NCBI RefSeq assembly: GCF_016900895.1
Contig: NZ_JAFEUN010000003.1
Coordinates: 1-64,000 of the forward strand
Origin: Parashewanella hymeniacidonis
Lineage (GTDB): Bacteria > Pseudomonadota > Gammaproteobacteria > Enterobacterales > Shewanellaceae
Length of the DNA: 64,000 nucleotides
Direction: 5' to 3'
This document shows, piece after piece, positions 9,975-64,000 of this stretch. The position numbers and the translations under genes are program-made. How positions within the stretch are numbered: the stretch's first letter is position 1; the number at the start of each line of letters is the position of its first letter. The notes below the pieces were generated by a model. That model saw only the letters and a program-made list of their open reading frames with translations. It ran no database searches and was not told the origin of the DNA.

Positions 9975-10013
9975 CCCGTTATATCAATTACAGCAAAAGA
10001 TATTGTCCGAAAA

Positions 10014-43500: not shown

Positions 43501-43684
43501 AGAAGTAATGCGTATCCAAGGCATAGTGCATATCAAAGTTAGCTGGCGCTCCATGCTGATACTTTTGATTTCCATAGTCAGGCTTAACCTCATTAATACC
43601 CGCTTTGATTTCTTCTATGCTACTACCTGTTAAGTATTTTTCTATCGCAGCTTCTAGTGCCTGCTCATTTGTTTGGCTAACCAT
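40583..43684 (-). CDS. hsdR: Type I restriction enzyme, HsdR
   Basis: 1033 residues, motor and nuclease subunit of a type I R-M complex. The N-terminal PD-(D/E)xK nuclease is seen as EIDMVLFINGIPLITLELKN (about 156-174). Walker A is HSAGSGKSNSITW (about 319), DEAH lies in VIIDEAHSSQSG (about 434) and FAFTATPK follows. It is the last gene of a five-gene leftward run, 18 bp after the TPR/OB gene, and far from hsdM and hsdS (56-59 kb). The C-terminal helical region should contact the methyltransferase. Confidence 0.93.
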   Translation of the reverse strand: MVSQTNEQALEAAIEKYLTGSSIEEIKAGINEVKPDYGNQKYQHGAPANFDMHYALDTHYFWQFLDSTQEEELEKLKRNSPHDWQRKILERFDRLIKKHGVLHLLKKGLSVDDAHFTLMFPAPLASSSERVKQNFASNVFSVTRQLRFSLANPLQEIDMVLFINGIPLITLELKNHWTNQTARYHGQKQYRDDRDVTQPLLQFGRCLVHMAVDTDEVYMTTKLAGKSTFFLPFNKGHNHGQGNPPNPNGHKTSYLWEEVFAKESLVNIIQHFVRLDGSSKDELRKRTLFFPRYHQMDVVRKLVEHVATNGVGQTYLIQHSAGSGKSNSITWAAYQLIETYPLHENIQGSKGVDVPLFDSVIVVTDRRLLDKQLRENIKEFSEVKNIVAPAFKSSELKSALENGKKIIITTIQKFPFIIDGISDLSDKRFGVIIDEAHSSQSGSAHDNMNRAMGKSEIEEAEDAQDKILKAMRSRKMRGNASYFAFTATPKNTTLEKFGQKQTDGTFKPFHLYSMKQAIEEGFILDVIANYTTYKSYYEIEKSIKDNPLFDTKKAQKKLRAYVEREQQTINIKAEIMLDHFIPQVINAKKLRGKGKGMVVTQNIETAIRYYKALTRLLDEKGNPFKVVIAFSGTKEVDGIEYTEAEINGFPEGDTKDYFDVNYKRKNSQEKIPKTVNQDEYRLLVVANKYLTGFDQPKLCAMYVDKKLASVLCVQTLSRLNRSAPKLGKKTEDLFVLDFFNETGDIKTAFDPFYTSTTLSEATDVNVLHELKDAMDDVGVYEWHEVETFVERYFDDADAQQLSPIIDIAANRFNFELELEDEDKIDFKIKAKQFVKIYGQMASIMLYEIVAWEKLFWFLKFLIPKLIVKDPDSEALDELLDSVDLSSYGLQRVKLNHSIELDDDETELEPQNPNTRGTHGNDEDKDPLDDIIKAFNERWFQGWSATPEAQRVKLIDMTESLKKHPDFESKYLNNPDAFNSDLAFDKMLKEVMLRIRKDELEFYKLYAQDPAFKTALTQSLKQTVGIESLTKRRV

Positions 43685-47876: not shown

Positions 47877-47887
47877 ACTGTACTCTC

Positions 47888-49861
47888 TTAATTTATGTAA
47901 TGCTTTGCTAAAACACCCAGCATATCTTTTTGGTGCGCTTTAATTTTTTCTTCGTCCCAATCCTCTTGTTCTCCCAGTAAATCGAACATCATTTTTAACT
48001 TTAAAGAGTCGTAATAATCTTTGTTTTCAAAGTCAATTTTTTTCTTTTTTACTGCCTGATTACTGTATGAAGAGTTTTCACTCGGACTGAGTAAGACTAG
48101 GTTACCGAACGCATCAAGAAAATCCCTATCCATCACACTTTCATATTCCTCATGTTGAGGGTGAACATGCTCAACGGAGTTTTTTGATGTTATCCTAAAC
48201 TTCGAAAAATTTTTATCGCCATTTGATGTTGTTTTGATCTGTTTCCAAAGCAAGTATTCCAACTTCTGGAACCAGTAATGCTCAAATGATGTGCCTCTGG
48301 ATTGAGTCAAGTACTCACTCTTTTGTTTCCAAGCAACAGTTATAGGCTTTTGATGTTGAGCCAACTTAAAACTGGCAGTTTTTTGAGTTTCGTCTTCACC
48401 TGCGAGTGACAAACTATTATCGATTCTCTCAATTAGGCGAACAACTTGGTCATGAGTTGTATATTGATTCTCTACTAACTCAGCTAAAAATGGCGTTAAC
48501 CAGTACTGTGCGCTACGCTCACCAGTGAAGTTACGAACACTTTGCAGTAAAGTAATTTCCTCTACTTCCCGCTGATTACGATTAATATACCAATTTGAAC
48601 CTGACTGACTTCGAGATTGATAAGTTAATCTCAATTGCTCATCATCGCTGTCGTCACGTTCAACCCACTTCACGACCCAACGATCAAACTGAAACCGTAT
48701 TTTCCAAAGTAATTTTATAAAATTTTTAACCTCTTCTTCATTGCTCGAGGTCAAAGCTTCAAAGGATTGCAATAACTTATCTTGGTGAATTCGATGGCAG
48801 ATATCTTCTTGCTGAAGTTGTGCTAAATGAATGCGATAGGTGTGAATAAGCAATAGAGAAAAGTTAATAATAGGCCGACAATATACAGTTTCCGCTGTGA
48901 TCTCTACAGCATTACTGCTCTTGCTTTTGGCATGTTCAGGTTTTGGTTCTTCCCTTATCAATTCAGCAATAGTTAAACCTTCTGTCGATTCTTTAGTACT
49001 TTTATCTACGGCGAATAATTCAGACTTAAATGTTACCAACGACTCAAATTCAATTGAATTCCAATCTGCATTGGGAAACAAATTGCGAAGGTTTTTTTCA
49101 AAGTAATTGTCCATGTGTTCACAAGCACTCCACATAGATTCATAAACCGATTTGTCTGACTTAATTCGCTCCAATAACTTTGATTTAAGAATATCCGTTT
49201 GTTCTAGTTGAATGCCTGAAGTATTCATGGTTGCAAATAAACGATTCAGATCCATTGACACAGGTACGGTGTTATTTACCCATTGGACTGAAGAGAAAAT
49301 ATAATCAGCCACTGATTTTTGCTTATCATCCGCAAGCGAACTTATGCGCTGCTTTAATACTGCCAATGCTGCATATATCCTGTTTAGGTATTCATCCTTA
49401 TTTATTTCTTCAGAGCTTGGTGACGTAAATTCCTTCAAACCTGCAAAATTACCTAATAGCTGCTGCACTTGCTCTCTAATATCAAACTGTAATCTTGGTT
49501 TTTGATTCAATTTAGGAACATGAGTAATCTTAGCGTCAACACCTGCCATTTTGAAGGCAATAGCAATCAGCATTAATGTCGTAGTACGTTGCTGACCATC
49601 AATTAATTCATAGATTTTTTCACCGTTGCCCAACTGATGCGTTGAGGTCAACACCGTACCAATAAAATAACTGCTTTCGCATTCGTTTTGTGCTTTGCAG
49701 ATATCATCAAATAATTTCAATACGGCTTCATCTGACCATACATATGGGCGCTGATAGCTAGGAATACTAAACTGGTACCCCTGTTCATAGGTTTTTTCCA
49801 ATGTAAGCACCTGAGACTTGACCAAGTCTTTTTGTGTTATATCATTCCGTTCGAAATCCAT
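47888..49861 (-). CDS. DUF262 + DUF1524 (HNH) protein, GmrSD-like
   Basis: 657 residues. The DUF262 (ParB/GmrS-like) part has IPSYQRPYVW (about 33-42) and ELIDGQQRTTTLML (about 85-98), the conserved DGQQR nucleotide-handling motif. The C-terminal DUF1524 HNH nuclease is seen in SVEHVHPQHEEY (about 562-573) and FGNLVLLSPSENSSYSNQ. Fusions of these two are the architecture of GmrSD, a type IV enzyme that cleaves glucosylated phage DNA. It is separated from the second DUF262 gene by only two bases. Confidence 0.85.
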   Translation of the reverse strand: MDFERNDITQKDLVKSQVLTLEKTYEQGYQFSIPSYQRPYVWSDEAVLKLFDDICKAQNECESSYFIGTVLTSTHQLGNGEKIYELIDGQQRTTTLMLIAIAFKMAGVDAKITHVPKLNQKPRLQFDIREQVQQLLGNFAGLKEFTSPSSEEINKDEYLNRIYAALAVLKQRISSLADDKQKSVADYIFSSVQWVNNTVPVSMDLNRLFATMNTSGIQLEQTDILKSKLLERIKSDKSVYESMWSACEHMDNYFEKNLRNLFPNADWNSIEFESLVTFKSELFAVDKSTKESTEGLTIAELIREEPKPEHAKSKSSNAVEITAETVYCRPIINFSLLLIHTYRIHLAQLQQEDICHRIHQDKLLQSFEALTSSNEEEVKNFIKLLWKIRFQFDRWVVKWVERDDSDDEQLRLTYQSRSQSGSNWYINRNQREVEEITLLQSVRNFTGERSAQYWLTPFLAELVENQYTTHDQVVRLIERIDNSLSLAGEDETQKTASFKLAQHQKPITVAWKQKSEYLTQSRGTSFEHYWFQKLEYLLWKQIKTTSNGDKNFSKFRITSKNSVEHVHPQHEEYESVMDRDFLDAFGNLVLLSPSENSSYSNQAVKKKKIDFENKDYYDSLKLKMMFDLLGEQEDWDEEKIKAHQKDMLGVLAKHYIN

Positions 49862-49863
49862 TT

Positions 49864-51303
49864 TTAGTCTTCCTTAACTTTATTTCTATGAAGGTTATGA
49901 ATAACTGCTTGGTCAATACTTGTTCTATATTTCTCTGCAAGTTCGGTTGCTGAACACTTTTCCGATAACTCGATGTTAAACCACTCTATTGTTTTATAGA
50001 TAAAACGCTTTTTAACACTATTTTTTTCAAGGCTCGCTGGATCTACTTTTAGTTCAAACTTATCAAACCACTCCAAACACATTTCTGGCGTATAGCTTGT
50101 TGTTATCCAATCTAAAACAGGGTGTTTATTAACAAAAGAAGGGATTGAGGTTTCTCGAACTGCTTTTTGGTTAGAGACTCGACGTGAATAAACAACCCGA
50201 AAAATCTTCTTCGCTGCGACGATTAATTGCTCCTCCCCAAACTGACTGATATAAAGCAATAAACACGTGTCATACAAACCTTTTAAATAGCTACAGCCAT
50301 CGAGCTTACAAACTAAATGTTGATAAAAGTCAGCAAAGATTTCGTATTCAGCGCTGACTAAAGTTGAGTTGATTGTCAGGTAGTTAACTCTTAAGGTTTC
50401 AAAATAAGACAAATAGTGAATGCTATTAATACCTGTATTGAGTGGTTGGCGCATTTCATATCCATTTTGTGTATGCTGCTCTAGGTAACTACTATCTTGT
50501 TGCAATACACGATAGAACCGCCCATAAGCTACATCATCACCGTTCATGGTGTCTTCACCTAGTTCTTCGACAATTGCAGCTCTAACTTGCTGTGGTTTAC
50601 GGTGAGAAGGGAGTTCTCGCCTATTTAAAGCTTGCCAGTAGCGTCCTTTGAGTAAACTACTAATAACAGGGTTTAAATTACCTAGCGCTTCCCACTTACT
50701 CGCAAAATCATTTTGATACTTTCGCTCAATGGCTCTTAAGTGATGCGCCTTAATAATGTCTGCACCGCCAAGCCGAACACCACCTGTATTTTGTGTTTCA
50801 AAAAAACGATATGCATCATCTTCCGATTGAGTTACCACTAAGGTTAGATTGATATTAGATTCATCAAGCTCTTCTAAAAAAGAAGCTGCTTGCTCTTTAA
50901 TCCAAAGCCAATTTTTCTGAATTTGTTGTTGTGATTCAGGCGAGTGAAATTGAATATCTACTTCAAAGCCATTGCCAAATAACTGCAATTTGAAATAACT
51001 CAGTAATGCGAGAGTTGTAAGCCTTTGTTGACCATCAATGATATTCAAACAATTGTCACTTGGAGATTGATGCAGAATCACACTCCCCAAGTAATAACAA
51101 TATTGGGATTGCTTTGAGCGTAAGACTTCCAAATAATCTTGATAGTCACTCAACAACCTTTGAATTTGTTTCTCTGTCCAGCGGTATGGTCTTTGATATT
51201 CAGGAATGGTGAGCTTTCCCGATATGGGAATGCCATCAGAATCGATGATATTATCGTTTTGAAACAGTTGCGCTAAAGTACAACTGGCAACAGAAACCGT
51301 CAT
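49864..51303 (-). CDS. DUF262-only protein
   Basis: 479 residues. IPEYQRPYRW (about 33-42) and NIIDGQQRLTTLALL (about 87-101) are the DUF262 motifs; FFETQNTGGVRLGGADIIKAH is also typical. There is no HNH motif at the C-terminus, which is instead helical. It is the first gene of the leftward operon. Paired DUF262 proteins, one with and one without HNH, suggest a heteromeric complex. Confidence 0.8.
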   Translation of the reverse strand: MTVSVASCTLAQLFQNDNIIDSDGIPISGKLTIPEYQRPYRWTEKQIQRLLSDYQDYLEVLRSKQSQYCYYLGSVILHQSPSDNCLNIIDGQQRLTTLALLSYFKLQLFGNGFEVDIQFHSPESQQQIQKNWLWIKEQAASFLEELDESNINLTLVVTQSEDDAYRFFETQNTGGVRLGGADIIKAHHLRAIERKYQNDFASKWEALGNLNPVISSLLKGRYWQALNRRELPSHRKPQQVRAAIVEELGEDTMNGDDVAYGRFYRVLQQDSSYLEQHTQNGYEMRQPLNTGINSIHYLSYFETLRVNYLTINSTLVSAEYEIFADFYQHLVCKLDGCSYLKGLYDTCLLLYISQFGEEQLIVAAKKIFRVVYSRRVSNQKAVRETSIPSFVNKHPVLDWITTSYTPEMCLEWFDKFELKVDPASLEKNSVKKRFIYKTIEWFNIELSEKCSATELAEKYRTSIDQAVIHNLHRNKVKED

Positions 51304-51469: not shown

Positions 51470-52744
51470 TTACTGAGCGCTTACTTCAAACGAATCAATC
51501 TTTAATAAAGAATCTGTTTTTGCTAAGCCAATAAAGAAGCTAGCTCGTTCAATTGATACAGAAGAGTACTTAGATGCTAATGAAGAAAAACTAATATTAG
51601 TTTCAATATCGTGCCCTGCGACTTCGTAACGGCAAACACTCAGTGACTTGTTGCAATGGATTTCATTGTTACCACTTTCACTAAACGTCCACTGCTGAGA
51701 CGTAAAGTTCTCATATCCTGAGTTGCTTGAAGTAATATTTGTTGCGGTAAAATCAATAGAGGCACTGAAGTCACCAATAGCAATACCGTTAGAAGGCATA
51801 CTCATTGCCCGAACAAAAATACCACCATTTACGATTGGGTTTACATAATCTACTGCACCGCTTTGACGTACAAACTTACCTTGAAAGCCTGTCACCATGT
51901 CAGAACTATCTACAGGAGTAGGTTCAGGGTCTGGTATTGGCGTATTGTCATCATCACAATGTTCGCCTAAGCAGATATCATCCCCATTGCTAAAGTTGAT
52001 GTCTGCAATACTAAAATTTACGGTTAGGTTTCCTTCATCTCCACCAACGTAAAAGTTATATTGTTTATTCGATTCGAGAGAGTCTTTGTCTAATTGAGCG
52101 ATATGCTCTTCCCCCTGAGGGGTTGTGATTTTAAGCTCAAAACTTGTAGCTTGATTGACATAAGCATAGTAATGGTCATTTTGCTCGTGCATAGCAGCAA
52201 AATCTGCTACTCCAATTGTCTTTTTGAGCATAGGAGCTTGTTGAACAAATACCCCCTTCTCAACGGTGATTAAACTGTAATCCTTGTTGAAAAACTCCAT
52301 ATTCGCAGTCGTTTCGTCAGCACCGACACTAGCTGATGAATATAGAGGGATTGATTTATTAAACCCACCATCTGAACAATTGCCATCCAATTGTTCGCAA
52401 TAATCAACCGCAAAAGCTGTTAATGCAACATCGCCAGTCAAATTATAAAATTTAACAGGTGTGTTTTCACTGGCTGTATCTTTTATTTCAACTACTTCAA
52501 CACATTGGCGGTCATGGATAGTATCATTAGCGCAAAAACGATAATTACTTTTCCAAATTTGAGAGGTATGGTTAGGGAGAGTATGTTCTTCATTAGCCAT
52601 TAGTTTAGAACTAGAATTGAGTTTAGTTTTAAACCCTATGACTATATTTCTCATTGGTGCATCGGATTGTTCACTGTCACTACCTCCACATGCAACAAGA
52701 CCTAATGATGCAATGACAGTTAAAGCCAAATATTTTGCTTTCAT
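51470..52744 (-). CDS. Lipoprotein with two beta-rich parts
   Basis: 424 residues with a lipobox (LTVIASLGLVACGGSDSEQ), so it is lipid-anchored after Cys19. A first domain (about 30-255; MRNIVIGFKTKL, VKFYNLTGDVALTAFAV, ANMEFFNKDYSLITVEKG) is homologous to most of the smaller lipoprotein upstream. An acidic Pro-rich linker (about 262-285) leads to a second unit that ends with FEVSAQ. Function is unknown. A palindrome at 52838-52853 lies upstream. Confidence 0.6.
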   Translation of the reverse strand: MKAKYLALTVIASLGLVACGGSDSEQSDAPMRNIVIGFKTKLNSSSKLMANEEHTLPNHTSQIWKSNYRFCANDTIHDRQCVEVVEIKDTASENTPVKFYNLTGDVALTAFAVDYCEQLDGNCSDGGFNKSIPLYSSASVGADETTANMEFFNKDYSLITVEKGVFVQQAPMLKKTIGVADFAAMHEQNDHYYAYVNQATSFELKITTPQGEEHIAQLDKDSLESNKQYNFYVGGDEGNLTVNFSIADINFSNGDDICLGEHCDDDNTPIPDPEPTPVDSSDMVTGFQGKFVRQSGAVDYVNPIVNGGIFVRAMSMPSNGIAIGDFSASIDFTATNITSSNSGYENFTSQQWTFSESGNNEIHCNKSLSVCRYEVAGHDIETNISFSSLASKYSSVSIERASFFIGLAKTDSLLKIDSFEVSAQ

Positions 52745-52941: not shown

Positions 52942-53610
52942 TTAGTTGGTTGTATTTGCCATCCTGCCTGCTTCATCATATTTGTGCAACTCACCACTAT
53001 TTATTTCAACATTTTCTAATCGATAACTTCCAGATTGTGCGTCAACTTGAATTTGGTACTCTTTTTTAACATATAAATTCACTGGATAATCACTGCTACC
53101 TCGGGACAAAGAACCATTAATGATCACATCGGAGTACAAGCCTTTTTGAGCTTCTGAGCTTTGATAAGACACCAAGCCATATTTCTCATTTTTGAGTAAC
53201 ACGGTAGCCTCATCAGCTTTCCCAGTTATATTTGTGACGCCTTGCAACAAAGCACAAGTCGCAACATAACCATCAAACTCTCTGTTTTCAGTGCACTGAT
53301 TACTATAACTGTTATGGCGCTCATACCTCACCGCGGTGATCTTTGCATCACCAGTAACACTGTATAACTTTATCGGGTTAGAAATATCAATCCCTTCCTC
53401 ACACTCTTTAACGCCAGACTCATCAAAAAAACAAACCGTATAACCACGTTTAAACACCTTAACTTCATCGTCAAAGCCTTCAAATTTAGGTGTCTCAACA
53501 TCAAACGAAACTTCGATATTTCTTACTAGTGGAGCTGAACCACTGTCGCCACCACAAGCTGTTACTCCAAGAGTTGCAGCAACACATAAAACCAAGCTTT
53601 TAATTTTCAT
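52942..53610 (-). CDS. Lipoprotein, paralogue of its neighbour
   Basis: 222 residues with lipobox LCVAATLGVTACGGDSG. It shares VRNIEVSFDVET, IKLYSVTGDAKITAVRYE and VLLKNEKYGLVSYQSS with the first domain of the 424-residue lipoprotein, so one probably arose from the other. It ends in a short hydrophilic tail. Function is unknown. It is divergent from the Crp-like gene across a shared region containing operator 2. Confidence 0.6.
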   Translation of the reverse strand: MKIKSLVLCVAATLGVTACGGDSGSAPLVRNIEVSFDVETPKFEGFDDEVKVFKRGYTVCFFDESGVKECEEGIDISNPIKLYSVTGDAKITAVRYERHNSYSNQCTENREFDGYVATCALLQGVTNITGKADEATVLLKNEKYGLVSYQSSEAQKGLYSDVIINGSLSRGSSDYPVNLYVKKEYQIQVDAQSGSYRLENVEINSGELHKYDEAGRMANTTN

Positions 53611-53704
53611 ATCTTCTCAATCTGAACAAACCGAATGTTAACTTATATAAATTTCAGTAAACCTTGTTATAAAGCTTATTTTATGAAGAAAGTGCTTTTT
53701 GCTA

Positions 53705-53720
53705 TGTCACCTAAGTGACA
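53705..53720. promoter_or_regulatory. Palindromic operator 2
   Basis: TGTCACCTAAGTGACA: the same TGTCAC-N4-GTGACA dyad as at 52838, located between the divergent small lipoprotein gene (starting at 53610) and the Crp-like regulator (starting at 53783). It can serve both promoters and autoregulation. Confidence 0.7.
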
Positions 53721-53782
53721 AAAGGCATAGAATTGTAAAAGCTAAAGTTAAAACTCAAATCCATTTCACAATTTTGCCCAAT

Positions 53783-54496
53783 ATGAAATCAAAATTTCTA
53801 CTAGCTGACGTTGAGCGTTTTCTTTTTAAAGGAACTTCTTATTCAGATGATTTTTGTGAAAAGCTAATAAAAATCGCCAAAGTTGAAAAAACACCAAAAG
53901 GAAAACTATCTGCTTTAAAGAACAAACACTTAAACGGGATTAATTTTATAATGGAAGGAACGGTTATAGTAGGAATTTGCTCACCAAACCTAAAAACCGT
54001 TAACTTTATGGTTTTAGGTAAAAGTGAAAGCTTTGGTGAATTTGAAGCCAGTAATATCAACCAACCATTTTTTATTATCGAAATTGAAAAAGCAAAAGTG
54101 CTACACCTAAGCACATTAAAACTAAAAGAAATTGCAGATTCAAACAACGAGTTTTACAAATGGCACTATTATCTAAACTTAACGCCAAAGAGTAAGTGGC
54201 TTCAATCACAGCTCATTATGAATGAAACACTAGAGAACAAGATCGCTTATCTATTAATTGAGCTTGTCATTCATTCCGATACACATCAGATCAAGTTGTC
54301 CCAACAAGCCATTAGCGATATTACTGGTGCCGCAAGACAGCGAATAAATCAGGCTCTAAATCTACTTGAAGCTCAAGATATTCTCAAGCTTTCAAGGGGT
54401 AACATAACCATTCGAGATTTGAGTCAACTGACAAACAAGCTCAACAATGTAGACCTCAGCTTTAGGGATCCTAGAAAGTTATTAAAACAGAAGTAA
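53783..54496 (+). CDS. Crp/Fnr-family transcription regulator
   Basis: 237 residues. An N-terminal cyclic-nucleotide-binding-type beta roll (about 20-120; GINFIMEGTVIVGI, FMVLGKSESFGEFEASNI) is followed by a long helix and a winged HTH (IKLSQQAISDITGAARQRINQALNLLEAQDILKLSRGNITIRD). The classical cAMP-binding Arg-Ser pair is not evident, so the ligand is unlikely to be cAMP. ATG 53783 is preferred over a TTG at 53699 because the latter would overlap operator 2. Candidate targets are the two lipoproteins and itself. Confidence 0.8.
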   Translation: MKSKFLLADVERFLFKGTSYSDDFCEKLIKIAKVEKTPKGKLSALKNKHLNGINFIMEGTVIVGICSPNLKTVNFMVLGKSESFGEFEASNINQPFFIIEIEKAKVLHLSTLKLKEIADSNNEFYKWHYYLNLTPKSKWLQSQLIMNETLENKIAYLLIELVIHSDTHQIKLSQQAISDITGAARQRINQALNLLEAQDILKLSRGNITIRDLSQLTNKLNNVDLSFRDPRKLLKQK

Positions 54497-54517: not shown

Positions 54518-55105
54518 TTATTTGGAAAAATTGATAGCACTTTTTACCGCTTTAAACACGCTATGACCATGACGCATCATAGACTTGGCGTATTTATCAA
54601 AACTGGTGTCCCATACCGCACTTGAGTAGCCAGAAGCGCTGACACCTTCAAATGTGGCATATTCTTTTAACTGGTATTGCTCAATCGTTTTATCAAATTC
54701 TGACGCCACCGAATCACTTATGTGAGCGAGTATTTTTTCGTTTATAGTCACAGCAAAACGCAGTTCTCGTTTATCAATATGAGGAAACACATCATCACCA
54801 AAGTACTGTAATAATGTACCTCCCGTAACTGCTCCACGCCTGACATCATCAACAGCATAAAGTGCTGTAATTACACTGAGTATTTCGCAAACCGTTTCTT
54901 TATCTCGCTTAATCGCTGAATAAAGCGCTAATTGAATAGCGATTTCTAGATCATGTTTATTTACTTTACCAAGCTTCTCTTGTATCCAGTCTGCTATCCC
55001 TCTGACGTTCAACAACACTTTCTCTTGTAGTTCTTCATTTTGAGATAATTCTAATAAGGCTTTTTCTGCGATACTCATCAACAACTCAACAAACACTGGG
55101 TTCAT
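54518..55105 (-). CDS. Unknown 195-residue protein in the hsd block
   Basis: A mostly helical, acidic-basic mixed protein (MSIAEKALLELSQNEELQEK; DLEIAIQLALYSAIKRDKET; VFKAVKSAINFSK). No signal peptide, membrane helix or catalytic motif is seen. It is transcribed in the same direction as hsdS and hsdM, 65 bp after hsdS, so it probably belongs to that transcript. It could be an accessory or anti-restriction-control protein; nothing in the sequence proves this. Confidence 0.5.
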   Translation of the reverse strand: MNPVFVELLMSIAEKALLELSQNEELQEKVLLNVRGIADWIQEKLGKVNKHDLEIAIQLALYSAIKRDKETVCEILSVITALYAVDDVRRGAVTGGTLLQYFGDDVFPHIDKRELRFAVTINEKILAHISDSVASEFDKTIEQYQLKEYATFEGVSASGYSSAVWDTSFDKYAKSMMRHGHSVFKAVKSAINFSK

Positions 55106-55169: not shown

Positions 55170-56438
55170 TCATGATATCGCCGTTGGCAGTTTAATTTTG
55201 CCCGTTACTGCACTGTTGATTAGTGTGGTTTTGTATTCTTTGAGTTTTTCGATTTGCTCTGTTTGCAATTTAATCGCTATATCAAATTTCCCATTCTGAG
55301 CATCGATAAATTCTAAAATTTGAACTTGTTCTTTAATTGGTGCAATAGGAATTGCAATATCAAACAAATCATCTGTGTATAAACGAATTAACCCTTCAAC
55401 AATTCCAGTTGCACGAATTACAAATTGCTCAATGTAACGTGGATGACGGAATAACAACTCAAGCATCTTCACATCTGCAATAAAAGCCTTGGGTTTATAG
55501 ACGGCGTAATCGGGGCTTACGAGTCCTTTAAAATCAATATTTGATTTAAAGAACACACCTAAATGTGCTTTTAGCTTATTGAACACTAAATCATTCTTAT
55601 AAACTATCTTATTATCAATATTTGAAGCCGCCACCTCAGCTTTGTCATGATAATCAGCCCTTACCACCAAGCCATGAACTTGGCTCATCATGAATAATGG
55701 CTCTTCGCCAGTTTTTGAACGCTCATTCCTTTCTTCTAAAACGTACTTAACCCGTTTAACCTCCCAATGCTCTGGAATTTTTCCAATCCAATCTACACCT
55801 GAGTCTTTCATTGGTACGTTTGGGTCGAGTCCTTGAGTAACGGCTTGCTGGATAATGATTTGCTTGCGTTCTTTTAACAGCTCAATTTGCTGCTGTTTAA
55901 TGGCAATGGCTTCATCAATCTGCGCTGTTTTTTGTTCGAGGAAGTGTATGATAGCTTCCTGTTCTGACTCACACTCTGGATAACAAACCTCAAAATTTTG
56001 AATTAAAGGCAGTCGAAGGCTATCTACAGTCGATTTAGCTGTACCCAAAATAGCAACATTGAAAAAATTAACATATAAATAGTTATACAAATACTTGCCG
56101 ATCACTTCTGAGAAATCAGAAAATTTATAAACCCTTTGGTGAAAATCAAATTTGCCATTTATATAATGATAAACCTTACCTACACCAGCCCCATCTCCAG
56201 CAGTCAAAATCGCTTCACCATCAAAAGCGTATGTACTAATTTTTTCAAGAGTTTGAGAACGAACAAAGAAAGGATATTGACCATCATCTTCTTTATCTTC
56301 AGTATTTTTTTCACCCGTTGTTATTGAAGCGAGAAACTTAAATCTTTTAACTTTCCAACTCTCAGGAATTTCTCCTAACCATTCAACACCCGAATCTTTG
56401 TACTTTTCATACTTAGGCATCATTGTTAATTCAGTCAT
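55170..56438 (-). CDS. hsdS: Type I restriction enzyme specificity subunit HsdS
   Basis: 422 residues with two target-recognition domains, each preceded by a near-identical lead (YKDSGVEWLGEIPESWKVKR and MKDSGVDWIGKIPEHWEVKR) and followed by a coiled-coil spacer (HFLEQKTAQIDEAIAIKQQQ; QTEQIEKLKEYKTTLINS). This is the duplicated plan of HsdS, which sets the bipartite target. The ATG at 56438 is seven bases after GGAGG; a GTG at 56441 is too close. It begins about 11 bp after hsdM. Confidence 0.92.
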   Translation of the reverse strand: MTELTMMPKYEKYKDSGVEWLGEIPESWKVKRFKFLASITTGEKNTEDKEDDGQYPFFVRSQTLEKISTYAFDGEAILTAGDGAGVGKVYHYINGKFDFHQRVYKFSDFSEVIGKYLYNYLYVNFFNVAILGTAKSTVDSLRLPLIQNFEVCYPECESEQEAIIHFLEQKTAQIDEAIAIKQQQIELLKERKQIIIQQAVTQGLDPNVPMKDSGVDWIGKIPEHWEVKRVKYVLEERNERSKTGEEPLFMMSQVHGLVVRADYHDKAEVAASNIDNKIVYKNDLVFNKLKAHLGVFFKSNIDFKGLVSPDYAVYKPKAFIADVKMLELLFRHPRYIEQFVIRATGIVEGLIRLYTDDLFDIAIPIAPIKEQVQILEFIDAQNGKFDIAIKLQTEQIEKLKEYKTTLINSAVTGKIKLPTAIS

Positions 56439-56449
56439 CACAATGCCTC

Positions 56450-58900
56450 CTATGCTTTAGCTACTTCGATACCCAAGATCTCTGAAATCAAACCTTCGGC
56501 TTTTTTCTCAAGGGCAATAATGTCGCTGGCAACGTCAATCAGTGAACGCAGTGCTTTATGCTGATAGAAGTATTTATTAAAGCTGATCTCATAGCCGATT
56601 TTCACTGAATCAAGGTTGATCCACGCTTCATCTACATGAGGTTTCACTTCATCAAGATAATATTGGTGAATTTCACTGTTGTCAGTGTTTTGAAGCGTAT
56701 CTTTAGCTGAGTAAGTTAGCGGTACAGATTCAGCATCACGTAAATCAGAGCTTGGCTCATAGATGATAAACTCATTGGCATTTGCTGTAGCATTTTCATT
56801 GAGGTAATAACCAAAATCCACTAAATCAGCTTGCTCACAGCCTAAGTGATGCAGCAGCTCGTCCAGTTTTTCTTGCTTAAACTTCACCGTCTTTTTAATG
56901 ACTTTTTCAGCCGTTTCGTCATACCAACTCACTGCATTTACCACACTGGTGAAAAAAGCTTTACGTTTGGCAGGCTTGATGTCTTCCAGTAACTTAGGAG
57001 CTAAAGGCTTAAAGACTTTTTCAACATCGACTTTAAATTGATTAAAGTCGTTATACTCTCTAGTAATGCTTTGTTTTAGCTTATTGGCCAGCTCAACCAA
57101 TAAACGAGTTTCTTGCCATGTATCTTCTGCAAACAGCTTTTTCTTGGCTTTGGCATTTAGGCGGATGTCGTTCTCTTCACACCATTTTAGAATGTTTTTT
57201 TGCTCAGTCTGTAGAAAGTCTTGCTGATAAACTTTATCGCCATACTCGCTGTAAATGTACTCCATTGGCTCACGCAGCGATTTATCAAAGCGTAATGGCT
57301 CAATCAACTCAGCTTTAAATTGTGCTTTACGACGGTCTGGACGCTCAACATTCACCTTGTAATAGCCAAAGTCTGCATTGTCGAATACCTTAGTTGCAAG
57401 ACCTGTTGGCTCGTTATTTTCATCTTTTAGGCGCTCAATGCTTTTGCCATCTAGATAAGCTTGGGTGATTTGCTTGATGTGCTCTTGTGAAAACTCGCAG
57501 TTTTTATTGCCTAAGTTTTTACGCAGCTTTTGGAACAACAGGCTTGCATCAATCAGCTGCACTTTGCCTTGGCGCTTTGCTGGTTTGTTATTGTTTAGCA
57601 GCCAGATGTAGGTAGTGATACCTGTATTGTAGAACATGTTATTAGGCAGCTGCACGATGGCATCGAGCATATCGTTTTCAATCAGGTAACGGCGAATATT
57701 GCTTTCACCTGAGCCAGCATCGCCCGTAAACAAACTTGAACCATTATGAACTGATGCGATACGGCTTCCTAAAAGCCCTTGAGAAGGCTTTTTCATTTTA
57801 CTGACCATTTCCATCATGAACAGTAATTGACCGTCACTAGAGCGTGGTGCGGCATCTACAGTGGCGTTTTCGCCCCAATAATCAGCAAGCTTGACTTGGA
57901 AACGGCCATCAATGATATCCGAGCCATCTTTAATATGCTTTTGGTCGCTCGCCCAGCTTTTGCCATAAGGCGGGTTAGACAGCATAAAGTCAAAGCGATT
58001 AGCGGTAAAATCATCGGTAGCGAGTGTTGAACCGACTCTGATATTTTCAGGGTTATTGCCTTTGATCATCATATCGGACTTACATATGGCATAAGTCTCG
58101 TCGTTGATCTCTTTGCCGTATAAGTGAATATCACGCTTACCTGTTGCAACAGGATATTTTTCTTCAATAAAGTTTTGCGCTTCGGTAAGCATGCCGCCAC
58201 TACCGCAAGCAGGGTCGTAGATAGTCAACGGATCGGGTAAATTGGCTTCGATTGGGTCAAACACCAAGTGGGTCATTAACTCAATCACTTCTCTTGGCGT
58301 GAAATGCTCACCTGCTTCTTCGTTGTTTTCTTCGTTAAATTTTCGAATCAATTCTTCAAACACATAACCCATTCCAAGATTCGTAAGTGCTGGAAGTTTG
58401 TTGCCTTCAGGATCTTCTTTTTCATTAGGCGTTAGGTTGATATACGGCGATACGAACTTTTCAATCACTTCAAGCAACACGTCCTTTTCAGACATATGCC
58501 GTACTTGTGATGCGAGGTTAAAGCATTTTACGATTTCTTTGACGTTACTGCTAAAACCGTTTAAGTAATCCTCCATATTCGCCAATAGAATTTGACGATT
58601 ATTGGTCGCTGTATTTTTTAAACTTTTCAGCGTCCATTTTGAGGTGTTGTAAAATACATAACCTGAGGCTTCCATCAGCGGAGCATCATCAAGCTCGGTT
58701 GCTTGCATGTCTTCTTTCTGGAATTTTACTTCATCGAGCACAGCTTGTTTTGTTGGTTCTAGCAAAGTATCAATACGACGCAGCACTACCATCGGCAGTA
58801 TCACATCTCGGTATTTACCTCGAACATACACATCACGCAAACAATCGTCCGCAATCGACCAAATAAAAGAAACCAGCTTGTTGTGTACGCTGTGGTTCAT
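56450..58900 (-). CDS. hsdM: Type I restriction enzyme methyltransferase HsdM
   Basis: 816 residues, N6-adenine methyltransferase. The N-terminal HsdM helical domain precedes GEHFTPREVIELMTHLVFDP (about 197), the SAM motif IYDPACGSGGMLTEAQNF (about 227) and catalytic NPPYGKSW (about 309). The C-terminal 300 residues are an extension beyond the ~500-residue classical HsdM, as seen in long forms of this family. It leads hsdS and the 195-residue protein. Confidence 0.93.
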   Translation of the reverse strand: MNHSVHNKLVSFIWSIADDCLRDVYVRGKYRDVILPMVVLRRIDTLLEPTKQAVLDEVKFQKEDMQATELDDAPLMEASGYVFYNTSKWTLKSLKNTATNNRQILLANMEDYLNGFSSNVKEIVKCFNLASQVRHMSEKDVLLEVIEKFVSPYINLTPNEKEDPEGNKLPALTNLGMGYVFEELIRKFNEENNEEAGEHFTPREVIELMTHLVFDPIEANLPDPLTIYDPACGSGGMLTEAQNFIEEKYPVATGKRDIHLYGKEINDETYAICKSDMMIKGNNPENIRVGSTLATDDFTANRFDFMLSNPPYGKSWASDQKHIKDGSDIIDGRFQVKLADYWGENATVDAAPRSSDGQLLFMMEMVSKMKKPSQGLLGSRIASVHNGSSLFTGDAGSGESNIRRYLIENDMLDAIVQLPNNMFYNTGITTYIWLLNNNKPAKRQGKVQLIDASLLFQKLRKNLGNKNCEFSQEHIKQITQAYLDGKSIERLKDENNEPTGLATKVFDNADFGYYKVNVERPDRRKAQFKAELIEPLRFDKSLREPMEYIYSEYGDKVYQQDFLQTEQKNILKWCEENDIRLNAKAKKKLFAEDTWQETRLLVELANKLKQSITREYNDFNQFKVDVEKVFKPLAPKLLEDIKPAKRKAFFTSVVNAVSWYDETAEKVIKKTVKFKQEKLDELLHHLGCEQADLVDFGYYLNENATANANEFIIYEPSSDLRDAESVPLTYSAKDTLQNTDNSEIHQYYLDEVKPHVDEAWINLDSVKIGYEISFNKYFYQHKALRSLIDVASDIIALEKKAEGLISEILGIEVAKA

Positions 58901-59050: not shown

Positions 59051-59156
59051 ATTTGTGATTTTAAGCCCATGATTATCCCAAACATCGAAGTCGTAAAATG
59101 TGAGATGCATTTATTTATGCAATTTAGATATTACTTAATATAAATAAGGAATAAAT
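59051..59156. repeat. Direct repeat, copy 1 (about 106 bp)
   Basis: It matches 60391-60496 at a constant offset of 1340 bp, with about 11 differences by eye in the last 96 bases (TGAGATGCAT and AATTTAGATATTA are identical). It lies in the 600-bp stretch after hsdM, whose remaining bases contain only a gene remnant. The two copies flank the PDZ lipoprotein gene. Confidence 0.75.
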
Positions 59157-59163
59157 AGTTAGT

Positions 59164-59349
59164 TATGAGATAGAGGGTGCTAAGTACCACAAACTATCAT
59201 TTGCAATAGATCACCAATTTATCAAAGCGATATGGATTTCCAACCAGCCAGCTATATTAGAGGAGCGATATAATTCTGAAGCATATTACTCTTTAATGAG
59301 CACTCGTGATTCCGCTGCTGCATTACTATGGGCTTCAAATGTTAAATAA
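59164..59349 (+). pseudogene. Possible gene remnant after repeat copy 1
   Basis: An open stretch on the plus strand reads like a protein (FAIDHQFIKAIWISNQPAIL; STRDSAAALLWASNVK) and ends at TAA 59347-59349, but it lacks a convincing start. It follows repeat 1 just as the 122-residue gene follows repeat 2, so it may be a decayed gene that used the same promoter. The rest to 59505 is featureless AT-rich DNA. Confidence 0.25.
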
Positions 59350-59505: not shown

Positions 59506-60330
59506 TTACAGGGTTACCTTAACATCCTGTTCTTCACCTTTACGTATAACTCTTAAAACAGAGTAGATTTGAGAAGGGGGAACCTCCCTTAGTAACTTGA
59601 CTGCATGACTTACATTCTTGACGTTGACACCATCAATTGAAATTAATACATCATTTACTAATACATTTGAATTGAAAGCGGGAGAGTCTTCTACGACAAT
59701 TTCGACTAGGAGCCCTGTATTTCGTCCTAATGTTGTTCTTTGCTTTGGAGTCAAATCTCTTAAAGAGATACCAAATTTTGGCTTAAAATTTGATTTTACA
59801 AAATATATAGCCTCTTGATCATACCTGCGTTGATGTGTGGTTATTGGAATGATTTGTGTATCGTGGGTTGTTGATGTTTCAGTGTATGTACCTGTTATTG
59901 TACCACTAGAGATCGAACCGTAATGATTAGTTGTTGTATTACTTGGTATAAGTAAAGTATTTGTCGTTGCCTGGGTATTGGTATATTGTGCATTTACAAG
60001 AACAACTGTTGCACCAACTATTAAAGCTTGTTTTGCTGCGTTGCTAGTATCCTCATAAACGCCATTGAATGATGAATAGCCAATTGGTATATATCGTTTG
60101 GAACGCAAAATGAGAGTATCTCTAGTCAAATTATTGCTGCTAAGTATTTTTGGCATCTCTCCTTTGGAAATAAGCTCTACATCTGGTATAGCCTTAATAT
60201 CCACATATGAGTGATAAAACTGCTTGTAACCACTTTGAGCGCAACTAACCAGAAACAGAGGGGTTATTAGCAACGTTATAACCTTTATCCATTCTTTCTT
60301 CATATTGCATACAAATGCAGCTTTTTTCAT
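59506..60330 (-). CDS. PDZ-domain lipoprotein
   Basis: A 274-residue protein with a lipobox (TLLITPLFLVSCAQSGYKQF). The middle is rich in Thr/Asn/Ser (TQATTNTLLIPSNTTTNHYG), resembling low-complexity surface linkers. The C-terminal 90 residues form a PDZ domain (TGLLVEIVVEDSPAFNSNVL; VNDVLISIDGVNVKNVSHAV). There is no protease domain. ATG 60330 is chosen because upstream codons in the frame fall inside the direct repeat. It sits alone between the two repeats and is a possible inserted or duplicated cassette. Confidence 0.65.
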   Translation of the reverse strand: MKKAAFVCNMKKEWIKVITLLITPLFLVSCAQSGYKQFYHSYVDIKAIPDVELISKGEMPKILSSNNLTRDTLILRSKRYIPIGYSSFNGVYEDTSNAAKQALIVGATVVLVNAQYTNTQATTNTLLIPSNTTTNHYGSISSGTITGTYTETSTTHDTQIIPITTHQRRYDQEAIYFVKSNFKPKFGISLRDLTPKQRTTLGRNTGLLVEIVVEDSPAFNSNVLVNDVLISIDGVNVKNVSHAVKLLREVPPSQIYSVLRVIRKGEEQDVKVTL

Positions 60331-60390
60331 ATTTACTATTCTCTTTTTGGCTGAAAGATGCAGCCGTATTTCAAACTTTTTAATACTATT

Positions 60391-60496
60391 AAATTTGATT
60401 GTTAGCCCATAATTATGCCAAACAATAAAGTCGTAAAGTGTGAGATGCATTTGTTTATGCAATTTAGATATTAATTAATATAGATAAGGAATAAAT
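60391..60496. repeat. Direct repeat, copy 2 (about 106 bp)
   Basis: Second copy of the repeat at 59051-59156. It ends 31 bp before the 122-residue gene and contains TTAATATAGATAAGGAATAAAT, so it may hold that gene's promoter. Confidence 0.75.
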
Positions 60497-60527
60497 TGGC
60501 AATTAAAAAATAGAGGCATTAGAGTAT

Positions 60528-60896
60528 ATGGGGTTTGGTGTAAATAATGATCCTGAGAAAGTATTTAAAGATACGCTAGCAAGGCATAATGATTCAGTCC
60601 AGAAAGATAAAGAGTTTAAACAGCTAGTTAATGACTTGTCTCCTTTGAAGTTTAGAACCAGCAAAGAGTTATCTGCATACATTGTCCAGAATAATTTAGG
60701 TCATCACTATCCTAATATTTCTGGTGTGCTCGATATGAGTAATGGCGAAGATTCATGGAAGTATGAAGGCGGGTTTCCGCCAGATATTTATCGTAGGCTT
60801 TGCATTGAGTTAAAACTGGAAAGCCAGCACAGCTTAGCGAGACCTGGCAGTTTTAAATCGTACAACCAATTAAGTAAAGAAGACGATTTGTTTTAA
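60528..60896 (+). CDS. Hypothetical protein, 122 residues
   Basis: Hydrophilic and probably cytoplasmic (MGFGVNNDPEKVFKDTLARH; LKFRTSKELSAYIVQNNLG; FPPDIYRRLCIELKLESQ). No domain is recognised. It is the first of two small plus-strand genes separated by 24 bp that end at a terminator, which makes them a likely bicistronic unit. Confidence 0.55.
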   Translation: MGFGVNNDPEKVFKDTLARHNDSVQKDKEFKQLVNDLSPLKFRTSKELSAYIVQNNLGHHYPNISGVLDMSNGEDSWKYEGGFPPDIYRRLCIELKLESQHSLARPGSFKSYNQLSKEDDLF

Positions 60897-60920: not shown

Positions 60921-61328
60921 TTGAAACTTACAGGAAATACACCGATAGAGCGTAAACGCAATTTAGCACACATTGTTATAGAACACTTATTGGCGCTCAA
61001 TATCAAGGCCAAGCTTATTGAAAATCATAGAAACTCAATTGGACACACTGCAAGATTTTTGATTGATAGCGATATTGGCTTAATACATTTGACGGCTACA
61101 GGAAATAAAGCACCTAACTCATCAATAGCCGTCGCAGAATTTAAAACTGGTAATCAAGACTACCTTGCTGACATCAAGTATATCGCTTATGGCTGGAATA
61201 CTGCTGATGACCAAACAGTCTTAGCTTTTGTTAAGTCTAAGGATGTTGGAGGGCATAAAAGGCTTTCAAAAGGTAAGATTATTGAGTTGAGTGATAAGAA
61301 ATTGAGTACTGATCATTTATGCCAATAG
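60921..61328 (+). CDS. Hypothetical protein, 135 residues
   Basis: It starts with TTG after the first gene of the pair. Mixed alpha/beta composition (RKRNLAHIVIEHLLALNIKA; HTARFLIDSDIGLIHLTATG; SSIAVAEFKTGNQDYLADIK) might be a small nuclease-like fold (D-x-E-F-K), but the motif is too weak to claim. No signal peptide. Cotranscribed with the 122-residue gene. Confidence 0.5.
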   Translation: MKLTGNTPIERKRNLAHIVIEHLLALNIKAKLIENHRNSIGHTARFLIDSDIGLIHLTATGNKAPNSSIAVAEFKTGNQDYLADIKYIAYGWNTADDQTVLAFVKSKDVGGHKRLSKGKIIELSDKKLSTDHLCQ

Positions 61329-61654: not shown

Positions 61655-63421
61655 TTGAAACTCCTCAATCGCTTGTACCTCCACCCCAATGAGCTTCTCC
61701 CTTGCTACCTGCATCGATTAGCCAACGCAAACGGCTATCGCAACATTCAAACTTTGATGAAGAATTTAGGTGAAGAACTTATCAACACAAGGGTTCCAAG
61801 TAAGCGTTTATTTTTTGGTGAGTTTGATACTGACAAACTTTCATATCTAGTGAACTTAGAGCCTAACCAAATAACTCAACATCGCTTATCAAATACTGCC
61901 GCAACTAGAATCAAATACAAACAGCAAGAGTACTTAATGAAGCTGATAGACTTTACGTATCTGAGAATTTGTCCTACCTGTTACCAAAATTCTGGTGAAT
62001 TAAACCTTCTCAATTCATTGAAGTTCAAAACCTATTGTAGTAAACATCGCTGTAGGATGATCTCTGTTGACAATGAGACAGGAAAAAGATTCAGCTGGAG
62101 TACACATTACCTCAGAAAAAAGATAAATTACATAAAAGATAACACTCCTCATAACCACACTTGTGAAGCTGAGATAACGATAAATACTCACATTGATGGA
62201 CTATGGCAAAACAAGTCACCTAAAACTTATCCTTGTGTTGAAGGTTTCAACATCGCTGAATTTTTAGATATCGTCTCGTTCCTCTCACGCTTTCATTATC
62301 GAGCATATCCATCAAATACAAAAAATAAAAATCAGTATTTAGCAGCCCACTGGTATTTGAAAGATTGGCCTAAGTCGTATTTCAATCTTCTTGAGCACTT
62401 TCAAAATAACCCAATGAGTAATAAGCGCTTAACGGGAATTAGGAAGTGCTATCGTGATTTATACGACGAACTTTATGCCAAAAGTAATCAGGTTTCCGAA
62501 GGGTATACTTGGCTTAGAAAGTACTTTGAAAGCTATATCGAAACACATTTCGCTAATGGCGTAATTTCAACTTCGTCAAAATGGATAGCTGCTAATACAA
62601 TTGCATCAGCTGAATACATTAATGAAAAAACAGCTTGCCAATTTTTGTCAGTCCCAAAGACCAAGCTTAGCATTTTTATTCGTGAGGGATTTATCCAGCC
62701 TTATGAATCATCAGTAAACGGTAATTGTGTTTTTAAACGTAGCGAGATGGATACTCTCCGAAAGCGGCTAACTAAATGTCTCAGTCTTACAGAAGCTTCC
62801 AGCCTATTACAAATTAGTCAATTTCGCCTCAGAACTCTTATTAGATCAAACATCATCACACCACTTCTTCAGCCATCTGAAACCAGCAGAGATTGGCTGA
62901 TAGAAGAAAATGAACTTATTAAACTAGTAAAACAATTGAAACAAAGAGCTTCGTTAATAGATACTGGAAAAGGACGTGAGAGTAGTTATAAGCAATTTTC
63001 TTTACGAGGAGATAACTTTGCATCTGTCATCTGCAAGATGCTGTCTGGTAGGCTTAGCTTCACTTTAAGCCAATCAAAAAGCTCACCTCTTTCCTTTCAA
63101 CAATTCACACCAATGCTTTCAATTGAAGATCCTGAAGATGAATTACACCTAACACCAAGTGATGCTTGCAAAAAGCTAGGGATAAACAAAAACGTTATTT
63201 ACGATTTCATAAAAAGAGGCTTTGTAAAAGGCGTCAAACTAAAAGTGAATCGTACGACAAGACCTGTGCTTCATATCACAGCTACAAGCATTAAAGAATT
63301 TCAAGCCCGATATTATCTTCGACATCAACTAAAAGGTAAGCCGCTGCAAGACTATGAGCTTATTTCAGGGACAAGTGTGGATGATGGTATTATTAACTTA
63401 TACACCAATAAACTTAATTAA
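61655..63421 (+). CDS. tniQ: TniQ/TnsD-family transposition protein
   Basis: 588 residues from TTG 61655 (an in-frame TAA closes the frame upstream). The N-terminus NELLPCYLHRLANANGYRNI is the TniQ signature, and a zinc site is formed by C106-P-T-C109 and C128-S-K-H131. DWPKSYFNLLEHF (about 237-249) has a counterpart in the V. cholerae CAST TniQ. Three MerR/excisionase-like HTH units follow: EKTACQFLSVPKTKLSIF (about 324), LTEASSLLQISQFRLRTL (about 378) and TPSDACKKLGINKNVIYD (about 500). TniQ proteins carry target-site information to TnsC. A CAST TniQ is nearer 400 residues, so this is a long form, perhaps a TnsD-like direct DNA binder. It converges on the CRISPR array. Confidence 0.88.
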   Translation: MKLLNRLYLHPNELLPCYLHRLANANGYRNIQTLMKNLGEELINTRVPSKRLFFGEFDTDKLSYLVNLEPNQITQHRLSNTAATRIKYKQQEYLMKLIDFTYLRICPTCYQNSGELNLLNSLKFKTYCSKHRCRMISVDNETGKRFSWSTHYLRKKINYIKDNTPHNHTCEAEITINTHIDGLWQNKSPKTYPCVEGFNIAEFLDIVSFLSRFHYRAYPSNTKNKNQYLAAHWYLKDWPKSYFNLLEHFQNNPMSNKRLTGIRKCYRDLYDELYAKSNQVSEGYTWLRKYFESYIETHFANGVISTSSKWIAANTIASAEYINEKTACQFLSVPKTKLSIFIREGFIQPYESSVNGNCVFKRSEMDTLRKRLTKCLSLTEASSLLQISQFRLRTLIRSNIITPLLQPSETSRDWLIEENELIKLVKQLKQRASLIDTGKGRESSYKQFSLRGDNFASVICKMLSGRLSFTLSQSKSSPLSFQQFTPMLSIEDPEDELHLTPSDACKKLGINKNVIYDFIKRGFVKGVKLKVNRTTRPVLHITATSIKEFQARYYLRHQLKGKPLQDYELISGTSVDDGIINLYTNKLN

Positions 63422-63426
63422 ATAAT

Positions 63427-63459
63427 AAGCTGTTGAGCTAAGAAAAGCTTCAACAGCTT
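63427..63459. terminator. Bidirectional terminator between tniQ and CRISPR array
   Basis: AAGCTGTTGA ... TCAACAGCTT makes a perfect ten-bp stem six bases after the tniQ stop. The symmetric form suits termination of tniQ from the left and of the pre-crRNA from the right. Confidence 0.75.
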
Positions 63460-63517
63460 ATAGGTCAAGCAACTAACTAATTTTCAACAATACATTAATC
63501 AGGCATTGTGATTGTGT

Positions 63518-63665
63518 ATTTTTAGCTACCTGTGCGGTAGGTTACACTTACAACCAGCAACTTGAGCACCTACTAACATTTTCGGCTACCTGTGCGGTAG
63601 GTTACTATGGATGACAGCGAAAACATGCTGAGCGATTATTTTCGGCTACCTGTGCGGTAGGTTAC
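63518..63665 (-). CRISPR. Type I-F CRISPR mini-array, three repeats and two spacers
   Basis: Three 28-bp repeats (63518-63545, 63578-63605, 63638-63665) with an exact 60-bp period and two 32-bp spacers (63546-63577, 63606-63637). On the minus strand each repeat reads GTAAC, then stem CTACC, loop GCACA, stem GGTAG, then an eight-base tail. This is the Cas6f/Csy4 hairpin and 8-nt 5' handle of type I-F. The transcript runs leftward, downstream of cas6f. The last repeat in that direction (63545-63518) has a changed tail, CTAAAAAT instead of CCGAAAAT. 28/32 spacing and hairpin make the type secure. Confidence 0.95.
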
Positions 63666-63788
63666 AAGAAAAAATACAGTAAAAGCCCATACTTCTCTGA
63701 CTGTTACAATGATTCCTACAAAAGCACCCATCTATTTTCACCATAGATTAACCTCCTGATATTTAAGTGCATTTAACTCTCGTAGAAA
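63666..63788 (-). promoter_or_regulatory. Probable CRISPR leader / spacer between cas6f and array
   Basis: 123 bp of AT-rich DNA between the cas6f stop and the first repeat. The array may be transcribed from here or by read-through from the cas operon. No convincing promoter can be named. Confidence 0.4.
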
Positions 63789-64000
63789 TTAATGGTCGAA
63801 ACTTAGATCTGGTACGGTTCCCATTATTAACTGATTAGAACCGAGCCCGTAGTGACTAAAATCACATTTCACCTCTTTTACTCCTTCCACTTTTTCAATA
63901 TATAACGGAAAGGAACGCCTCGAACTTTGACTAATCAAAATTAATTTATGAAATAAACCGAAGCTTCTGTCTTTATATTCATGCTGAGGTTGGTATTCTC
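63789..64000 (-). CDS. cas6f: Cas6f (Csy4) crRNA endonuclease, C-terminal part
   Basis: The frame enters at the right edge and ends with TAA at 63791-63789 (about 69 residues visible). It reads FGLFHKLILISQSSRRSFPL, then YIEKVEGVKEV and CDFSHYGLGSNQLIMGTVPDL. This matches the end of Cas6f: a final strand with F-x-x-YGL-(S/G), as in P. aeruginosa Csy4 (FTCYGLSKGG) and the V. cholerae CAST Cas6 (FSSYGLSNSE...PVPL). Cas6f cuts pre-crRNA at the hairpin seen in the adjacent array. The N-terminus and the other cas genes lie outside the window. Confidence 0.85.
   Translation of the reverse strand, partial: EYQPQHEYKDRSFGLFHKLILISQSSRRSFPLYIEKVEGVKEVKCDFSHYGLGSNQLIMGTVPDLSFDH

Follow-up and report, generated by a model that had tools for sequence, protein, structure and literature searches.

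The DNA analysed here is a window comprising the first 64,000 nucleotides of contig NZ_JAFEUN010000003.1, from the Parashewanella hymeniacidonis assembly GCF_016900895.1. The contig is 85,142 bp long, so a further 21 kb could be read past the window. At the window's right edge lie a TniQ-family gene, an array of clustered regularly interspaced short palindromic repeats (CRISPR) and the C-terminus of cas6f. From the letters of the window, a preliminary description had taken these for part of a type I-F CRISPR-associated Tn7-like transposon (CAST) whose remaining genes should lie rightward. These genes are indeed found there, as cas7, cas8/5, another tniQ, tnsC, tnsB and tnsA all follow on the same contig. 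We consider it highly probable that the locus is a complete, apparently intact 32.3-kb type I-F3 CAST at the stop codon of parE with two target selectors, one (TniQ2) directed to parE and the other (TniQ1 with Cascade) directed to targets chosen by guides. This confidence extends to the anatomy and the two-pathway reading; the origin of the CRISPR block is judged separately below.

Cascade, transposition genes and element ends

The coordinates of the preliminary description proved exact. The array (63518-63665, minus strand) consists of three 28-bp repeats spaced exactly 60 bp apart, and hence of two 32-bp spacers, and the cas6-distal repeat differs from the others at 2 bases. On the minus strand the repeat folds into a hairpin with a 5-bp stem (-6.2 kcal/mol), as is typical for Cas6f repeats; for the two repeat versions, 5/200 and 10/200 shuffled sequences fold as well. 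The neighbouring cas6f occupies 63789-64000 of the window and continues to contig position 64388 (minus strand; TIGR02563 77.0 bits, cut-off 36.25). Outside the window, also on the minus strand, follow cas7 (contig 64391-65452), a fused cas8/5 of 664 amino acids (65462-67456), tniQ1 of 394 amino acids (67450-68634), tnsC (68727-69767), tnsB (69781-71826) and tnsA (71798-72457). The order of transcription is therefore tnsA, tnsB, tnsC, tniQ1, cas8/5, cas7, cas6 and array, with tniQ1 at the head of the cas operon as is usual in I-F3 elements. All core open reading frames (ORFs) are open and full length. TniQ1 matches solved CAST TniQs (best E-value 8e-57, entry 7u5d) and Cas8/5 matches solved I-F3 Cas8/5 structures.

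An unrelated TniQ next to a conventional I-F immune system, with cas1 and cas2-3 but no tnsABC, was the case that the preliminary description had named as fatal to its own proposal. We regard this explanation as refuted on this assembly: tnsA, tnsB and tnsC are present and contiguous, neither Cas1 (PF01867) nor the I-F Cas3 family (TIGR02562) has a match in the assembly, and Cas7 groups with those of CASTs (100/100). The same Cas1 profile matched in 9 of 14 control genomes, and the Cas3 profile in 4 of 14, over its cut-off in one. The assembly (4.81 Mb) is rated 100% complete but is split into 307 contigs, so that a gene missing from it is not absent with certainty. Csy3 occurs once in it. Judged by its gene content, with fused cas8/5, cas7 and cas6, tnsA/B/C with a Cascade-type TniQ, and a 28/32-bp hairpin-repeat array, the element is a type I-F3 CAST. 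What marks it as Tn7-like is TnsABC, together with two matching ends that carry repeated sites and a duplication of 5 bp.

The element spans contig positions 40340-72603 (32,264 bp). The right edge of the window, where the preliminary description had located it, is thus part of the CAST, but the element also reaches 21 kb to the left of 61655. Its termini are 5'-TAGTGATT on the left (40340-40364) and 5'-TGCTGATT on the right (right end, contig 72535-72603, outside the window), and both are flanked by the target-site duplication ATTTT (40335-40339 and, outside the window, contig 72604-72608). Three copies of the motif ATGCAAACTTATGGTG lie between tnsA and parE, all exact and within the right end, and one more exact copy is found at 40349. 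The 15-nt core of this motif has four exact copies in the whole contig, all at the two termini, and the outermost copy on each side stands at offset 10. From their place and spacing, we infer that these repeated motifs are TnsB sites. Allowing up to 3 mismatches, a 20-kb right-hand stretch contains five matches where 0.29 would be expected; three of the five are the exact copies. For the left end, counting matches does not reach significance by itself, since there are two at this threshold (the second, weaker one at 40458-40473 on the minus strand, with 3 mismatches) and 30 of 100 shuffles reach as many. We accept the left end because of its exact copy, the offset of that copy, the duplication and the empty site.

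The right-hand copy of ATTTT shares bases with the TAA stop codon of parE (contig 72607-74496, minus strand), which lies outside the element, past its right end. When the joined flanks were compared with 29 relative loci, three aligned across the junction. One of these represents the empty site: a genome of the same genus (G759, L028) is 97.3% identical to the joined flanks over 1,601 bp and contains a single ATTTT. On the other side of the element, the ORF of the gene downstream of parE (window 39177-40364) has an extended start (MQTYGV...) because it extends into the ATGCAAACTTATGGTG site at the left end; a later ATG (MLSSLN) is probably the native start.

Two TniQ proteins and their probable targets

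The TniQ gene at the window's edge (tniQ2, 61655-63421) has a TTG start and encodes 588 amino acids, with Pfam matches to TniQ (54.4 bits, cut-off 27) and HTH_17 (46.4 bits). It lies on the plus strand and thus opposes the array and cas6, as the preliminary description had seen. The inference of a CAST from this neighbourhood was right, but TniQ2 is not the partner of Cascade, a role that falls to TniQ1. TniQ2 is a second, TnsD-like TniQ and a candidate selector for homing to parE. Its sequence matched none of the solved structures. An AlphaFold model is of moderate quality (mean predicted local distance difference test score 65), with the N-terminal third mostly below 60 and a better C-terminal half. 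The best structural matches of this model are CAST TniQs, with template modelling scores of at most 0.29 and root-mean-square deviations near 20, so these matches support family membership alone. The C-terminal half of the model resembles helix-turn-helix units of the excisionase/MerR type.

TniQ2 is rare. Matches were found in 4 of 394 genomes of the order and in 3 of 369 genomes of the class, its own genome included in both counts, and the other two of the class (G107 and G158) are partial at 24% identity. When one genome per species was scanned at the places that fit two short peptide patterns, nine loci emerged, two of them being the halves of a single gene. No TniQ2 relative was found in a contig scan of genomes with a single-protein query, nor in viral contigs. 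Two of the loci coincide with genomes already counted (L022 is G525, L024 is G459) and, together with G503, there are nine distinct elements. The Neptunomonas element (L023) is cut by a contig end, which leaves eight with readable context.

All eight of these relatives (28-40% identity in TniQ2) have tnsA, tnsB, tnsC and parE alongside, parE being partial in one (L021). Queries with Cas6, Cas7 and Cas8 matched in none of the eight, in the stretch available around each; the same queries matched all three genes in 19 of 19 CAST loci. Each relative has a small tniQ (343-365 amino acids) between tnsC and tniQ2, and so encodes two TniQs. Placed by the offset-10 rule, the element end lies 0-7 bases past the parE stop codon in seven of nine rows, window included, and could not be placed in the other two (L019 and L026). 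The duplication was examined in the window and, with one base of ambiguity, in T. loyana. Two of the relatives contain additional tniQ2-like sequence. In Colwellia sp. NORP201 (L021), a full tniQ2 (9935-11767) is accompanied by a C-terminal remnant (16089-16457) beside the small tniQ, an arrangement such as a tandem insertion or a replacement at parE would leave. In Colwellia sp. 75C3 (L018), a second, fragmentary TniQ2-like match (4997-5256) lies upstream of the full one.

We propose that TniQ2, with its TniQ core and helix-turn-helix half, would recognise the 3' end of parE and direct safe chromosomal insertion just past the gene. TniQ1 on the Cas8/5-Cas7-Cas6 complex, loaded with CRISPR RNAs from the two-spacer array, would direct insertion at other, probably mobile, targets. 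To judge from the known families, TnsC would link either selector to the cut-and-paste transposase TnsA+TnsB acting at the mapped ends. Both the activity and this division of labour are predictions. The review PMC11406308 ascribes such a dual-selector scheme to a third I-F3 CAST branch, where it lists Tn7017 (EasCAST).

Homing to parE might instead be RNA-guided, as in other I-F3 elements, with TniQ2 in another role or a relic. Atypical repeats and spacers are linked to homing, and the cas6-distal repeat of the array diverges at 2 bases. Such an 'atypical' repeat with its spacer is described as a CAST feature in PMC8649781, and PMC11406308 notes that most I-F3 CASTs lack an extra TniQ/TnsD for the attachment site and that attachment-site guide RNAs were first found in I-F3. 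In addition, if the 32 bases that follow the final repeat are counted as a third spacer, they match parE with 10 mismatches. I-F3 elements insert about 50 bp from the protospacer. We do not read these bases as a homing guide, as no repeat follows them, three 11-mismatch matches occur elsewhere on the contig, and the parE match lies about 1.2 kb from the insertion. Of the two spacers, spacer 1 has a single other match on the contig, at 10 mismatches, and no other match to spacer 2 appears at up to 11. RNA-guided homing was rejected for want of a convincing spacer match at parE. Moreover, the tniQ2 frame is intact over its full length, and both the parE site and TniQ2 are shared by eight relatives that gave no Cas match. 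We therefore consider RNA-guided homing very improbable.

Several observations weigh against an intact element with two targeting pathways. As set by the duplication, the termini are TAG and TGC rather than the 5'-TGT that is usual, though not defining, for Tn7-like ends; this is a deviation and not an exclusion, and the termini of the relatives, positioned by the same offset, are likewise variable. Searches of 72,556 plasmid records and 50,697 phage records gave no protospacer for either spacer (best E-value 0.3), and in 295 genomes of the order the array itself was the sole match at up to 3 mismatches. The parE match of the 32 bases after the array belongs here too. The distant TniQ2 relatives in G107 and G158, 24% identical over part of the protein, are not at parE in the stretches available, and neither is a TniQ2 relative on an Acinetobacter plasmid (one of two plasmid matches inspected), which has TnsABC and one TniQ. 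In the trees described below, the grouping of TniQ1 with CAST TniQs is weak (47/93), and a grouping of TniQ1 with the small TniQs of all eight parE elements was not rejected (p = 0.099, or 0.219 without the long outgroup row L016). Finally, the likeness to Tn7017 is one of described architecture.

Some of these points would also suit an element that is complete in appearance and no longer mobile: there are two spacers alone, neither with a known target, the termini are unusual, and the stretch from the array to tniQ2 occurs once in the assembly. Against this, the core ORFs are all open and full length, the main end sites show no mismatch, and the two copies of the duplication remain identical. 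We consider a defunct element unlikely, and an apparently intact CAST with two selectors remains our preferred reading.

Probable history of the selector slot

Cas8/5 was matched in 20 of 394 genomes of the order, its own included, and none of the other 19 is among the four TniQ2 genomes. A TnsB tree of 32 rows places the window inside the clade of parE elements (98/99, 100/98 and 100/99), as sister to Alteromonas sp. 5E99-2 (100/99), which itself has no cas match. Grouping the window's TnsB with all 19 other CASTs was rejected (p = 2e-8), and so was placing it with the larger CAST clade of 16 (p = 0.003). The 19 CAST rows are each genome's best TnsB match. In 15 of them TnsB is on the same contig as cas8/5, and in four (G468, G426, G541 and G685) it is on another contig of a fragmented assembly and the pairing is assumed. 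L016 and L017 have long branches and end together in this tree. The P. hymeniacidonis genome also contains a second, distant Tn7-like TnsB (G000:C293:17990-18448; 37% identity over 151 residues, open frame of 698 amino acids), which groups closely with one in genome G672.

In the Cas7 tree the window falls inside I-F3 (100/100), in a comparison with one unassigned row and 19 rows of candidate I-F1, the latter classed as such by the tree and the family score rather than by neighbouring genes. It lies outside the clade formed by 16 of the 19 other CASTs (98/95). One row (L141) was left out because of a stop inside the gene. The small TniQs of the eight parE elements group in a single clade (100/99) from which TniQ1 is absent, and grouping TniQ1 with the small TniQ of its TnsB sister, Alteromonas sp. 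5E99-2, was rejected (p = 1e-6, or 6.6e-35 without L016). This tree omits L017, L023 and L025, from which no separate small TniQ was taken, and was also rebuilt without L016. The window's branches are long (1.35 for TniQ1, 1.92 for Cas7). The TnsB and TniQ1 results indicate that tniQ1 and tnsB have different histories, and the trees do not settle the source of tniQ1.

Comparisons between relatives suggest exchange at the position of the small tniQ. In a Psychromonas-type pair (G503 and B3M02), DNA identity per 150-bp step is 77-85% in parE, rises to 94-95% at the element end and is mostly 80-95% across tnsABC; it drops to 48-63% in the small tniQ, and most of tniQ2 shows 65-79%. The corresponding protein identities are 92% for TnsB, 33% for the small TniQ and 64% for TniQ2. 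Alteromonas sp. 5E99-2 and T. loyana are 35% identical in TnsB and 87% in TniQ2. Selectors thus appear to move between transposase cores at parE, or else the small tniQ changes very fast.

The tniQ1-cas8/5-cas7-cas6-array block of the window occupies the slot of the relatives' small tniQ. Most likely, the block replaced the small tniQ of a Cas-less parE element, a view that leans towards gain and stops short of proof. We favour gain because the window's tnsB nests within the Cas-less parE elements without tniQ1 sharing its history, and because the block sits in the small-tniQ slot. More tentatively, with somewhat less than even confidence, we picture a parE platform with a homing side (tnsABC and tniQ2, themselves exchangeable) and an exchangeable slot for a second selector between tnsC and tniQ2. 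The small TniQs would be guide-free selectors with a fast turnover, and a tniQ-Cascade-array block would have entered the slot at least once. If so, CRISPR guidance would be one interchangeable option of the slot.

The same anatomy could have the reverse history, in which the parE lineage started out with Cascade and lost it on many occasions. Faure et al. 2023 (PMC10293859) describe the Tn7017 branch as dual tniQ-tnsD and mostly without Cascade, 'suggesting multiple gains or losses', and so leave the direction open. The window's Cas7 lies deep in I-F3, outside the clade of 16 CASTs, as a long-resident copy could, and the grouping of TniQ1 with all parE small TniQs was not rejected. However, the TnsB tree would demand no fewer than three losses together with a change of TniQ, every loss would have left behind a small TniQ from the one clade that excludes the window's, and the small tniQ differs sharply between otherwise close elements. 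We consider repeated loss doubtful, and a gain of the block in the small-tniQ slot remains the favoured history.

Cargo and comparison with known systems

The left part of the element holds its cargo. An hsdR-like type I restriction subunit (40583-43684, minus strand; PADLOC REase_I) is followed on the same strand by the gene pair of the phage-defence candidate PDC-M16 (43703-47876; B at 43703-45124, A at 45117-47876) and by two GmrSD_N proteins (47888-51303; 47888-49861 and 49864-51303). The PDC-M16A/B genes encode NERD, helicase and TOTE-type domains, and one GmrSD_N protein also has DUF7834. Further right lie three minus-strand ORFs without a Pfam match (51470-52744, 52942-53610 and 54518-55105), a Crp-type helix-turn-helix ORF (53699-54496, plus strand), hsdS (55170-56441) and hsdM (56450-58900), both on the minus strand, a PDZ-domain protein (59506-60462, minus strand) and two small plus-strand ORFs (60528-60896 and 60921-61328). 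With hsdR on one side and hsdS/hsdM on the other, the type I genes enclose PDC-M16A/B and the two GmrSD-type proteins, and the defence genes nested at 43703-51303 may form one composite defence locus with them. A direct repeat of 121 bp (85% identity; 59056-59176 and 60396-60516) flanks the PDZ-domain gene. Rfam gave no match in window positions 40000-64000. That Tn7-like elements carry defence genes as cargo is documented in PMC8649781.

No paper on this particular element was among those listed by a literature search. Its architecture is already published, as Tn7017 (EasCAST) likewise has two TniQ-family proteins, a parE attachment site and an I-F Cascade, according to excerpts of PMC11406308 and, for the dual tniQ-tnsD, PMC10293859. 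The features of this branch present here are the second, larger TniQ, insertion at parE and relatives that, in all eight cases, have two TniQs and no cas match in the stretches available. The element is thus a new example of a rare and sparsely sampled kind: known dual-TniQ I-F3 CASTs are few, and Tn7017 is the only one named in the excerpts of PMC11406308 and PMC10293859.

Other I-F3 CASTs resemble the element in their parts. The best structural-database matches of its TniQ1 and Cas8/5 are Tn6900 (AsCAST, I-F3b) and Tn7016 (PseCAST), and the best structural match of its TnsB is the Pse TnsAB. Structure entry 7u5e is titled I-F3b, and we take 7u5d and 7u5e to be AsCAST. Tn6677 (VchCAST, I-F3a) has the same functional parts, with weaker matches in TnsB, TniQ and Cas8 than Tn6900 and Tn7016. 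None of these three elements is known to have a second TniQ. In the TnsB tree, the window falls in none of the clades that hold the 19 other sampled CASTs.

A close comparison is with the Cas-less parE elements of Colwellia, Thalassotalea, Alteromonas, Psychromonas and Rheinheimera. They have the same order of tnsA, tnsB, tnsC and small tniQ facing tniQ2, and the same attachment gene, with TnsB at most 51% identical to the window's. They differ in having no cas match in the stretches available and in their small TniQ of 343-365 amino acids, whose clade excludes TniQ1. What our analysis adds to the published architecture is a direction of change, as the sequence comparisons favour gain of the CRISPR block over repeated loss in a branch for which the excerpt of PMC10293859 leaves this choice open. 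It also provides a concrete comparison, with the same attachment gene, transposase clade and slot, with and without CRISPR. This makes it testable whether the TnsC of a guide-free element accepts a foreign TniQ-Cascade, which bears on the modularity of gene-insertion tools.

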